IMG/VR virus record: IMGVR_UViG_3300009788_000007
Coordinates: 1-64,000 of that record
Reading direction: 5' to 3' (one strand)
DNA from: a virus
DNA: 64,000 nt
Position numbers and translations under genes: made by a program. The notes beneath the pieces were generated by a model, which made no database searches, was not told the origin of the DNA, and saw only the letters and a program-made list of their open reading frames with translations. Shown here one piece after another: positions 49,792-54,404 of this stretch. Numbering within the stretch: position 1 is the stretch's first letter; the number at the start of each line of letters is the position of its first letter.

Positions 49792-51042
49792 TTACCCAAG
49801 CAAACGTGCAGCAAGTTCTGCACGAATAAGGCGGGTACCCCATAAGATATCAAATTCCCAAACAACTTGTTTATGTTGCCTTGATACTTCAAGACGTAAA
49901 ACAATACCTGTTTTAGGGTCTTGCATTGACATGATTTTAGAACCCAAAGCCAAATCTTGAGTGCTTTGAGTAAGTGGGCGTGTCGCAAAAGCAAATGCGT
50001 CACGATGGAACACAAGGTTAACTACGTGGTCATCAATAACAGTCAACACTTCGTCATCAGCAACAGCAGTTTGCAAAGCTGGGAAAAATTTTAGTGCAGT
50101 GATAGCATTTGCAGCAAATGTGTACGTGCCAACTGTACCTGCTTGGTTATCAGTAACATTAGCAAATTCAGCAGAGGCTGCGTTATCTACAACCACATAA
50201 GATTGTGCATGACCAGCAAAAGTGAAAATGTCACCATTAAGCAAAGTGCCAGCAACAGACACTTCAGCACCATTGTCTATATTGATGGTGTCGATGCCAA
50301 TAGCATAACCAGCACCATTATTAACTGCAGCTGTACGTGTGGCACCCGCAAGAATAGTACCGGCTATGTGTGTGATAACTTCGTCATCAGCAACCCAGTC
50401 AATACCAAATTTCCGGCCAATCTCACCTTCAAGAATAACGTCTGCACTCAAAGTATTGTTTGCAGAAAAGAACGGTTCAAGCTCAAGCGCTTGGGCTTCT
50501 GCATCAAAATCAAGTACACCGCGCCTGTTATCTTTAGGGCAAACCTGCTGATTCAAAATTTTACGTACTTGAGTAGCTGATTTAACGCCTACGCTTGTAC
50601 CAAATGGAGTTGTGCCAGCTGTTCCGGTAACACCAAAAACACCACGCACTGGGCCACGGTACTCTTCATGAATAGAACGGTTTACATCATTGGCTAGTGT
50701 TCTGATAGCTTCTGACATTTGCATAGGTAAAAAATCTTCACGTGCGTCAATTTCAACCAAATCTTTATCGGTCAAATGGATAGCGTCGTTCTGCCTCCAA
50801 TAATTCAAAGGGATGGGCACTGTTTCAATCGTGGTGCTTGCAGGTACTGGGGGTGTGTTTGATGGTGCTACATCAGAAGTAGATACTGCAGAAGGAATGG
50901 GCACATTAATTGTGTCGCCTTTTTTTGCAGCCTCTTGTGCGTAGTCACCATTGACCAAACGAGGCATAACCGCAGCCTCGCGTAATGCCAAAAGTCCCCG
51001 TGCGAGAATTTTTGGTAGGATATCATCCAAATTATTTGCCAT
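49792..51042 (-). CDS. major capsid protein, P22 coat-like
   Basis: The 416-residue protein matches the P22 gp5-like coat family: LARGLLALREAAVMPRLVNG, KKGDTINVPIPSA, PLNYWRQNDAIHLTDKDLVE and ANDVNRSIHEEYRGPVRGVFG in the N-terminal half. A ~100-residue beta insertion (residues ~235-320) fits the family's insertion domain. The C-terminus DPKTGIVLRLEVSRQHKQVV then ILWGTRLIRAEL is typical. GGAGG lies eight bases before the ATG. Confidence 0.9.
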   Translation of the reverse strand: MANNLDDILPKILARGLLALREAAVMPRLVNGDYAQEAAKKGDTINVPIPSAVSTSDVAPSNTPPVPASTTIETVPIPLNYWRQNDAIHLTDKDLVEIDAREDFLPMQMSEAIRTLANDVNRSIHEEYRGPVRGVFGVTGTAGTTPFGTSVGVKSATQVRKILNQQVCPKDNRRGVLDFDAEAQALELEPFFSANNTLSADVILEGEIGRKFGIDWVADDEVITHIAGTILAGATRTAAVNNGAGYAIGIDTINIDNGAEVSVAGTLLNGDIFTFAGHAQSYVVVDNAASAEFANVTDNQAGTVGTYTFAANAITALKFFPALQTAVADDEVLTVIDDHVVNLVFHRDAFAFATRPLTQSTQDLALGSKIMSMQDPKTGIVLRLEVSRQHKQVVWEFDILWGTRLIRAELAARLLG

Positions 51043-52140: not shown

Positions 52141-52222
52141 GGAAATGTGGTTTTTAGAAAAAGTTTTAAATAGTCCTAAATAGTTACAAATATTTTAAAA
52201 TATTTCAAAGTATCTACACAAA

Positions 52223-54310
52223 TTAATCTAATTTTGCTTCAGCTGCACGCATCTGTGGAAGGGTAAGCTGCTTAGTTTTATCATTAAAAAAGAACTTATC
52301 GTTCAGCTTCCCGCGCCGAAATAACGCAGACCTTTCTTTGCCTAAAGCCATTTGCTGGGTAGCCTTTGACTGATTGCGTAACCACTGGGGGTATGTTTGA
52401 GTAGCCGGAACCTGCCCTTTAAAGGTATCGCTTGCTGATGCCCTGGTAGATGGTGGTAATTCATTAAGCCCTGGTATGCCTAAATCCTCAAATGATTTTA
52501 TTACAGGTACCGTGGTACTCCTGCAATTATGCACTAATAACCCATTAGCTAAATAAGTCTCGTCATCCACAACAGCTAGATTGTAAACATACCCGTTGTA
52601 GTACTCATCTACATTTGATATGCTTGATGAGGCAAACCAATTAGAGGGGGAGTTATGGCTACGTTCACTAAAAAAGAACTTGAAAAAATTATTAAAAGAG
52701 AGCACTGGAAATTGGGTAAACCTCTTAGACAAATTGAAAGAGAACTTGGGGTAGGTAAAACTGTTGTGCAAAGTAGTTGCAAACGCTTGGGAATTAAGAC
52801 ACGCACCAGAACCGAGAGTATTAGAAGTGGGCACGCTAATGGCCATCTTAAGGGGGCATCTGGTGCTGACCATTGGAGAAAACAGAATATCAAAAAAAGT
52901 AAAAAGCTTGCTAAACAAAGTTCTGCAAGAATGAAGAAGTCTAACCCAATGTTTGATAAAGGCACTAAAGAAAAAATTCTTAAAACACGTGCTGATAATT
53001 ATAGTAAAAATCCAACAAGACATGAAGCGGCACTTATTAAAATATTTCAACGCAGGGGTATAATATTTTGTTTTCAAAAATCTGTCAGGGGTGGTATTGC
53101 TGATTTTACTTTTGGTAAAGTTATCCTTGAGATTGACGGTAGAGGACATGCCAGCAGAAAAACTGCTGATGCTATACGGGATAAGGTCCTCAATACACTT
53201 GGTTGGCATGTTGTGCGAGTTAGTCAAGACAGCCTGCGTGATTACAGACGACACCCCAACGGCCATTGGCATCTTAGTAAACTTTTCAAAGTTTTGAAAA
53301 AGTACATCACCTGTACAAACATCCCTAGCATTAAGCCATCCTCTGGTTTTGGTAAGTATCGGGTGGTCGTCCGTGAGGCTAACACAGGTATTGAAAGACG
53401 TTTTTAGTTTTTTAATTTTACCGTTATGTGATTTAGCCATAACTGTATAAACTTTTTTCCATCTGTTTAAATGTGTCAATACCTCGTCACCTACCTTAAC
53501 ATCTTCAATAGGTGTTAAACCTTTTTTTGTAGTTATTAGAGTACCCCCCACAAGCGCATTAAAATGTTGGGGAGGCCTGGGGCCTTCACCAATTGGGAAT
53601 ACCTCACCATCAAGAGAAGCGCAGATAGGTGTTGTACGGCTGTCTAGTGTTGCGACATATTTTACTTTATCAATCACATCAGAATTTGCTTCGTAGGTTG
53701 CTTCTCTTGCTTTTACAGTTACCTCGGTCACAGATGTGCGCACTAACGTCTGCGCGTTATGGCGAGTACCATTAAAAACACCATCTGAAAAACCTTGTGC
53801 TTTTGTGCCGACAATCCTACGCGTCATATCCGGGATACTGTCACCCTCTGCTAAACCTATACTAAGCCGTCTTGTAATTTCATTGGCGTCCCGGTCTGCA
53901 TACTGATTAAAATATTTTTTAATAGTTTGCCCTCTTACTTTACCATTTACAATTTGCCGCATCACTGCTTGAGAGGGTACAGTTAGTGCTAATGAAATAG
54001 GGGAATTTTTATTAATAATACGTATTTGATTCTCTGCTTCATTATTTGCAATGTCTAAAAGATCACTCTTAAGGTCAACACCTAAACCCTTGTACCCTTC
54101 ACGCAAAAGTATTGTGTATGCTTTTCGCATTCTGATAAATCTATCCGCTGACATATTTCTGCGCAGTCTGCGGTTTATCTCTTTTTCGACATCAGGCAGC
54201 ACATCATCATTAAGCGTGGCTAAAATTTTATTGACTTCTTTATTACGCAGGCGCTCTAAAAAAATAGCATGCTTTATGGCCTCATCTTGTATGTCGTCAT
54301 TTATTGCCAT
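52223..54310 (-). CDS. MuF-type head protein interrupted by an intein
   Basis: The 695-residue precursor has exteins of 251 and 100 residues. The N-extein is a helical MuF/SPP1 gp7-like domain (FNGTRHNAQTLVRTSVTEVT, TLDSRTTPICASLDGEVFPI, GPRPPQHFN). The C-extein resumes at CRSTTVPVIKSF, completing the conserved PPxHxxCR motif. The mature 351-residue protein would be a minor head protein, packaged with or beneath the portal and often ejected with DNA. It is coded just after the DUF4055 portal. Splicing is needed to restore the motif. Confidence 0.88.
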   Translation of the reverse strand: MAINDDIQDEAIKHAIFLERLRNKEVNKILATLNDDVLPDVEKEINRRLRRNMSADRFIRMRKAYTILLREGYKGLGVDLKSDLLDIANNEAENQIRIINKNSPISLALTVPSQAVMRQIVNGKVRGQTIKKYFNQYADRDANEITRRLSIGLAEGDSIPDMTRRIVGTKAQGFSDGVFNGTRHNAQTLVRTSVTEVTVKAREATYEANSDVIDKVKYVATLDSRTTPICASLDGEVFPIGEGPRPPQHFNALVGGTLITTKKGLTPIEDVKVGDEVLTHLNRWKKVYTVMAKSHNGKIKKLKTSFNTCVSLTDDHPILTKTRGWLNARDVCTGDVLFQNFEKFTKMPMAVGVSSVITQAVLTNSHNMPTKCIEDLIPYSISSFSAGMSSTVNLKDNFTKSKISNTTPDRFLKTKYYTPALKYFNKCRFMSCWIFTIIISTCFKNFFFSAFIKHWVRLLHSCRTLFSKLFTFFDILFSPMVSTRCPLKMAISVPTSNTLGSGACLNSQAFATTLHNSFTYPKFSFNLSKRFTQFPVLSFNNFFKFFFSERSHNSPSNWFASSSISNVDEYYNGYVYNLAVVDDETYLANGLLVHNCRSTTVPVIKSFEDLGIPGLNELPPSTRASASDTFKGQVPATQTYPQWLRNQSKATQQMALGKERSALFRRGKLNDKFFFNDKTKQLTLPQMRAAEAKLD
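52526..53557 (-). other. Ala1 intein (344 aa) in the MuF gene
   Basis: The insertion begins ALVGGTLITTKKGLTPIEDV (block A with Ala in place of Cys1) after Asn251. Block B is VSLTDDHPILT (Thr313, His316). The C-terminal blocks read GYVYNLAVVDDETYLANG and LLVHN, ending in His-Asn before Cys+1. Ala1 with Cys+1 is the class 2 arrangement (KlbA-like direct attack on the upstream bond); the class 3 Trp and Cys markers are absent. The middle ~250 residues are low in charge and odd in composition because they are the antisense of an endonuclease gene. Confidence 0.88.
52655..53407 (+). CDS. Vsr/DUF559-like (EDxHD) homing endonuclease nested antisense in the intein
   Basis: The 250-residue product has an N-terminal HTH (PLRQIERELGVGKTVVQSSC) and a NUMOD-like DNA-binding stretch (SGHANGHLKGASGADHW, KKSNPMFDKGTKEKIL). 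The nuclease domain follows: Glu124 in RHEAALIKIF, Asp150 in GIADFTFG, Glu159/Asp161 in ILEIDGRGH and His165, then RDKVLNTLGWHVVRVSQDSL. This matches the Vsr-like EDxHD homing endonucleases. AGGGGGAG lies just before the ATG. It reads opposite to the whole head operon, wholly inside the intein. Confidence 0.85.
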   Translation: MATFTKKELEKIIKREHWKLGKPLRQIERELGVGKTVVQSSCKRLGIKTRTRTESIRSGHANGHLKGASGADHWRKQNIKKSKKLAKQSSARMKKSNPMFDKGTKEKILKTRADNYSKNPTRHEAALIKIFQRRGIIFCFQKSVRGGIADFTFGKVILEIDGRGHASRKTADAIRDKVLNTLGWHVVRVSQDSLRDYRRHPNGHWHLSKLFKVLKKYITCTNIPSIKPSSGFGKYRVVVREANTGIERRF

Positions 54311-54404
54311 TAGGTTTATTTTTCTTTTTAACAGTACGTTTAGTTATAGATCTTTTGGTTACAGATTTTTTAGGTGCAGTAGTTTTTTTAAGGTGTTTTG
54401 GCAT
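54297..54404 (-). CDS. 35-aa Lys-rich peptide
   Basis: The product MPKHLKKTTAPKKSVTKRSI then TKRTVKKKNKPNGNK is extremely basic. GGGAG lies seven bases before its ATG, and it overlaps genes on both sides. A DNA-binding or head-interior peptide is possible. Composition alone is weak evidence. Confidence 0.5.
   Translation of the reverse strand: MPKHLKKTTAPKKSVTKRSITKRTVKKKNKPNGNK

Follow-up and report, generated by a model that had tools for sequence, protein, structure and literature searches.

Our analysis indicates that a single insert in a phage head gene is one mobile element in which one strand encodes splicing and the opposite strand cutting, a reading to which we assign a probability of roughly 0.86 and in which splicing, cleavage and the exact target are inferred. 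The insert lies in the window, the 64,000-nucleotide stretch analysed here (IMGVR_UViG_3300009788_000007, positions 1 to 64,000), which is part of an 80.6-kb IMG/VR phage record. The data establish both reading frames, their homologies and selection for the openness of each and, in relatives, an empty site and horizontal spread. The finding is more general than the original prediction, made from these letters alone, had supposed, and the function is well supported by comparison, splicing and cleavage remaining inferred.

How would such an element work? Read in the frame of the MuF gene, the intein would excise itself and restore a head protein of 351 aa. Read from the opposite strand, the insert would supply a gene for a free endonuclease of the EDxHD/DUF559 type, translated from its own ribosome-binding site; this enzyme would cut intein-free MuF alleles near the codons for PPxHPN/CRS (here and below the slash marks a junction), and repair of the cut allele would copy the whole element in. 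The means by which the antisense gene is transcribed, in the direction opposed to the head gene cluster, can only be inferred; a scan for promoters and terminators of the plus-strand gene gave nothing above shuffled background.

The intein and the gene opposite it

The host gene (52223..54310, minus strand) encodes a MuF-like minor head protein together with its intein in a single unbroken reading frame of 695 aa. The precursor matches Phage_Mu_F (E=8.3e-11, Pfam), phageSPP1_gp7 (1.1e-12) and phrog_241 (6e-91), and the neighbouring genes are those of a head gene cluster, namely portal, scaffold and major head genes. The intein takes up exactly 1,032 bases (52526..53557, minus strand), or 344 aa that run from A1 to H343-N344 and are followed by C+1, with junctions PPQHFN/ALVGGTLITT and LLVHN/CRSTT; its removal, computed from the sequence, leaves the predicted spliced product of the length given above.

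Block A, ALVGGTLITTKKG (53519..53557, minus strand), begins A1-L-V-G-G-T and is class-2-like by its sequence and by the alignment of relatives. Block B, T62-D-D-H65 (53363..53374, minus strand), overlaps the 3' end of the nuclease gene, and blocks F and G, YYNGYVYNLAVVDDETYLANGLLVHN (52526..52603, minus strand), carry a match to intein_Cterm (TIGR01443, 1.8e-06) above the NCBIfam cut-off. Three residues, H65, N344 and C345 (which is C+1), are invariant across 47 aligned inteins. Counting against the window copy are the absence of the usual Cys1, a score for intein_Nterm (TIGR01445, NCBIfam) below cut-off, and a score for Intein_splicing (PF14890, E=8.6e-09) that sits exactly at the Pfam cut-off.

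Ala at the first position is permitted in class 2 and class 3 inteins, and is normal for class 2. Among related MuF inteins, those of 1.266.O, 1.082.O and 1.265.O also have Ala there and that of 1.113.A has Cys1, while block F of the window intein reads VYNLAV and has no Cys, that is, the class 3 block F nucleophile is absent. When the intein family profile was compared with the PDB, the best match was the KlbA intein 2jmz (9.6e-11), a class 2 Ala1 intein, with which the combination of Ala1 and Cys+1 in the window agrees. An AlphaFold model gives the splicing blocks pLDDT values of 84-97 and the part opposite the nuclease mostly values <50, and its top Foldseek matches are all inteins (best E 4.7e-03). 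A KlbA-like class 2 type with Ala1 and Cys+1 is what these features fit, splicing activity itself being inferred from them.

On the plus strand, the predicted homing endonuclease gene runs from ATG to TAG over 250 aa (52655..53407) and is preceded by the Shine-Dalgarno-like site AGAGGGGGAG (52643..52652). Its product matches DUF559 (PF04480, E=1.8e-10, above the Pfam cut-off) and has homologues in Vibrio phages. The putative catalytic domain, of the PD-(D/E)xK or EDxHD kind, spans aa 110-200 (52982..53254), where the AlphaFold model has pLDDT 76-95 by blocks (mean over the whole model 79). The residues E124, D150 and E159, the acidic residues expected of a PD-(D/E)xK core, are invariant in 67 aligned members of the nuclease family, and the motif E159-x-D161-G-x-x-H165 is present in all four type I members (defined below). 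Against the PDB, the family profile ranked 3hrl first (2.4e-09) and I-Bth0305I, 3r3p, second (2.5e-08). The same I-Bth0305I structure, 3r3p_B, is the top Foldseek match of the model (E 1.9e-03, TM 0.77 normalised to target), no Foldseek match having E <0.001. The PDB entry terms I-Bth0305I a mobile intron protein, and we take its source to be a group I intron of a Bacillus phage; it is alike in being the best structural match of the catalytic domain and unlike in its DNA-binding part. In the window nuclease, aa 6-44 (52670..52786) are helical in the model (H6-20, H24-31, H35-44) and HTH-like, and HTH families match many of the 67 relatives. On the strength of these matches and of the model, we predict that the plus-strand product is a DUF559/EDxHD-type nuclease with a homing role, site-specific cutting of an empty allele being inferred.

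Most of the original prediction survives this scrutiny. The coordinates it gave for intein and plus-strand frame are exact, and the splicing blocks it saw at both ends are borne out by the sequence, Pfam and NCBIfam; so are a 250-aa gene with its own Shine-Dalgarno sequence and a Vsr/DUF559-like EDxHD nuclease. It had also proposed HTH and NUMOD-like parts, and here only the HTH-like helices stand: we found no NUMOD match in the window nuclease, and of the 67 family members just 2 match NUMOD1.

The same arrangement in other phages

By tblastn, Vibrio phages 1.266.O, 1.082.O and 1.265.O each proved to encode a version of the plus-strand protein (38-43% identity) antisense within their MuF intein, in each case unannotated. 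The window and these three phages make up type I. A long antisense frame is present as well in the MuF inteins of Guernseyvirinae and of another Vibrio phage, and this Guernseyvirinae-like set we call type II. The two nucleases are homologous (hhalign probability 98.9%, E 1.7e-17, 191 columns). Phage records matched by the type II protein number 107 and include phages or prophages of Salmonella, E. coli, Klebsiella, Pantoea, Vibrio, Gordonia, Mycobacterium, Aggregatibacter, Edwardsiella, Idiomarinaceae and Helicobacter, and all 13 nested loci examined from that list have the nuclease opposite the MuF gene and inside its intein.

Searches of viral and genome contigs with type II alignments added 126 loci, 97 of them distinct; the queries were two closer alignments, the 14-sequence type II alignment being too diverse for a pattern scan. 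Single-protein searches of the viral contigs returned the same phage only, and the type I alignment gave nothing in the genome contigs and one weak match in the viral contigs, with the nuclease in frame (L012, below). When the opposite-strand frames of 67 loci were scanned, Intein_splicing was found in 63 and Phage_Mu_F in 59. We conclude, from sequence comparison, that homologous nucleases lie antisense in MuF inteins at about 100 loci beyond the three Vibrio phages.

The original prediction had called the insert a composite homing element, had proposed a search of phage and metagenomic MuF inteins for an antisense DUF559/Vsr gene, and had allowed that disrupted antisense frames in relatives, or a product without similarity to EDxHD nucleases, would refute it. 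The search was productive in phages and contigs alike, only a few related loci have a disrupted antisense frame, the product does resemble EDxHD nucleases, and the composite reading both passes the sequence tests and generalises to about 100 loci, with splicing and cutting inferred. Three loci (L031, L149, L150) have frameshifts that resemble assembly noise and were left out of the inference. At a further locus (L069:2501-3199) a stop falls between the catalytic residues of the nuclease frame and the intein frame is still open, which is endonuclease decay preceding intein loss.

Openness of the two frames and rival explanations

The nuclease and intein frames lie on opposite strands in codon-aligned antisense register. 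In this register the stops of one frame appear as TTA, CTA or TCA in the other. In the window phage TTA and CTA encode 57% of leucines and TCA encodes 27% of serines, and none of the three occurs among the 16 Leu and 18 Ser codons of the nuclease gene, for which P is about 4e-9 at the phage's codon usage. Across 30 other genes of the same phage, 0 of 5,828 windows of 250 codons were free of these codons. Synonymous recoding of the nuclease left the intein frame open in 0 of 20,000 trials, with a mean of 14 stops, and synonymous recoding of the intein frame never left the nuclease frame open. The double-open overlap is not due to chance. As a separate observation, the longest antisense-stop-free stretch in this register among the 30 genes, 161 codons, is in the major head gene (49792-51042, minus strand) and probably arises from the codon bias of a highly expressed gene.

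The same signature recurs elsewhere. At all 19 nested loci inspected (the window and 18 annotated records) the codon-aligned antisense register is the sole open one and TTA, CTA and TCA are absent, and they are absent from the matched region in 95 of the 97 distinct further loci, whereas in the flanking ORFs they make up 19% of the Leu codons and 16% of the Ser codons. Since TTA, CTA and TCA all have synonyms, codon choice alone can keep the opposite strand open in this register, whatever the protein. The arrangement is thus easy to reach, which would explain why this register is used at every locus.

Could the plus-strand frame be a mere shadow of a conserved intein protein and not a gene? 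Codon-aligned antisense frames of conserved genes can mimic conserved reading frames without being genes, and the overlap is in the register where shadows arise most easily; in Guernseyvirinae, moreover, the Shine-Dalgarno sequence and ATG of the nuclease lie opposite HVYNL, a conserved motif of intein block F. Against a shadow stand the DUF559 match, the I-Bth0305I fold and the existence of homologues that are free-standing and face no intein. Identity of the nuclease protein exceeds that of the intein-frame protein in 15 of 15 pairs, and in the same pairs it is the third position of the nuclease codons that varies most. Within the Guernseyvirinae overlap conservation favours the nuclease reading at the centre (0.70-0.93 versus 0.39-0.65 for the intein, for example 0.93 versus 0.51) and the intein reading over the splicing blocks at either end (0.83-0.85 versus 0.77-0.81). 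There is also a conserved DFHGD in the intein frame that is opposite VAVEV, the strand of the nuclease that bears the catalytic Glu, so at that spot the shadow may be on the intein side. The codon-position evidence, the matches to Pfam and to known folds, and the homologues that stand free lead us to reject the shadow, which we regard as very improbable. The comparisons show instead that both frames are selected to stay open, with the constraint coming from the nuclease in mid-overlap and from the intein at its splicing blocks. The converse possibility, a real nuclease opposite a dead intein whose frame is open by chance and whose MuF protein is made without splicing, is somewhat less remote and still improbable. 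It draws on Ala1 in place of Cys1, on the weak N-terminal profile score and on the long uninformative middle, much of it with pLDDT <50. Yet Ala1 is what class 2 inteins normally have, KlbA is the best PDB match, and the block B His, C-terminal Asn and C+1 are invariant in 47 inteins; the absence of antisense stops has the very small probability given above, and at L069 the intein frame has stayed open even though the nuclease is broken.

Two further explanations concern the kind of insert. The nuclease could be a free-standing endonuclease between the halves of a split intein in a fractured gene, for EDxHD enzymes are reportedly known from such genes and free-standing relatives of the nuclease do adjoin intein-free MuF genes; the MuF-intein frame, however, is continuous in the window phage and in nearly all relatives, which leaves this as unlikely as the shadow. 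Least plausible of all, to the point of being negligible, is a group I intron or another RNA-level insert that carries the nuclease. Antisense endonuclease genes are known in such introns (PMC9548176), but here the insert is in frame and has intein motifs at both ends; no Rfam intron match was found in 52200-54320, and the intron was rejected. The composite element, with an intein on one strand and an endonuclease on the other, remains the reading that we prefer.

Mobility, known systems and other housings of the nuclease

Evidence that such elements move comes from relatives. The MuF of phage K1ind2 is intein-free, has an extein 96% identical to that of Snoke and is continuous at PPAHPN/CRSTT; the Snoke paper reports K1ind2 without the intein and mentions no endonuclease (PMC6776784). 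Snoke and Salmonella phage vB_StyS-sam share 93-97% identity over the element and only 57-80% over the flanking MuF, and because the element is more alike than its host gene we infer that it moves as a unit. For the window phage we found no close relative with an empty site, all relatives being <60% identical, so that mobility is demonstrated in relatives and not in this phage.

The component parts are of known kinds. Canonical inteins with an in-frame LAGLIDADG or HNH endonuclease share with the window element a conserved insertion site, Hint splicing blocks at both ends, an endonuclease between blocks B and F, horizontal spread and empty alleles; unlike theirs, the window endonuclease has a gene of its own on the other strand, of which the middle of the intein is the antisense reading. 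Dassa et al. are said to have described, in 2009, fractured genes in which the inteins are split and EDxHD (Vsr-like) endonucleases are free-standing. These have in common with our case a free gene of the same nuclease superfamily inside an intein, and phages; they differ in that the window host gene and intein are unbroken and the nuclease overlaps a coding intein on the other strand. In the ShiLan element, where a phage methylase contains an out-of-frame HNH endonuclease (PMC11855218), a hidden homing endonuclease is likewise overprinted on an insert that is open in the host frame, but on the same strand, with an HNH enzyme and no splicing domain found, whereas the window has an antisense EDxHD enzyme and a Hint domain. 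The antisense homing endonuclease genes of group I introns also lie opposite the host gene within a self-splicing element; in those introns a peripheral insertion of the ribozyme houses the gene, whereas both strands of the window element code for protein over the same bases. In the literature searched, which did not cover all of the work on fractured genes, we found no description of an antisense endonuclease in an intein. To that extent the opposite-strand arrangement is a new variant, and the original statement that no standard description is known holds.

More generally, the element shows that a homing intein can have its two functions written on the two strands of one stretch of DNA; the overlap extends for several hundred bases and recurs in many phage lineages. 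Here long antisense overlap between genes occurs naturally and repeatedly, with a double selection that can be measured. Published genomes contain these elements, those of many Salmonella and E. coli phages among them, and the antisense gene, which standard annotation misses, is unannotated in most. With intein and endonuclease overprinted, many of the mutations lethal to one would harm the other as well, which would slow the usual endonuclease decay after fixation; the arrangement makes the avoidance of such decay testable. It also points to a path by which inteins could become fractured genes: if our reading is true, a broken intein frame would turn the composite element into split inteins with a free-standing endonuclease. 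Whether these elements form a distinct class of composite mobile element, probably of single origin, with two overprinted strands and intermediate towards fractured genes, is to our mind evenly balanced.

The nuclease is also found without an intein opposite. In Acinetobacter phages IME285 and BUCT629 a free-standing homologue is convergent with an intein-free MuF (L022:455-1345 and L027:2806-3699), and in IME285 the opposite frame is closed because the gene uses 12 TTA, CTA or TCA codons, so that these phages serve as a natural control; locus L127 resembles these two, with a free-standing nuclease and an intein-free MuF. Escherichia phage BEU35 (L024:287-2278) has its intein with antisense nuclease at another MuF site, STTC...NCRARDG, and its PPAHPN-CRSTT site is empty. 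In the helicase inteins of Vibrio phages CP-T1 (L007:2683-3429) and 103E44.1 (L008:2812-3438) a DUF559 nuclease frame is on the same strand at offset 1, both frames being stop-free over the overlap. A MuF intein in IMGVR_UViG_3300035698_010612 (L012:3876-6113) holds a DUF559 nuclease in frame, which is the conventional layout for an intein endonuclease with an unusual type of nuclease. Taken together, the antisense, same-strand offset and in-frame cases imply that this nuclease family is housed in inteins in at least three ways. A few of the MuF proteins with such inteins also carry ADP-ribosyltransferase domains (ADPrib_exo_Tox in 3 of 67, ART in 1 of 67).
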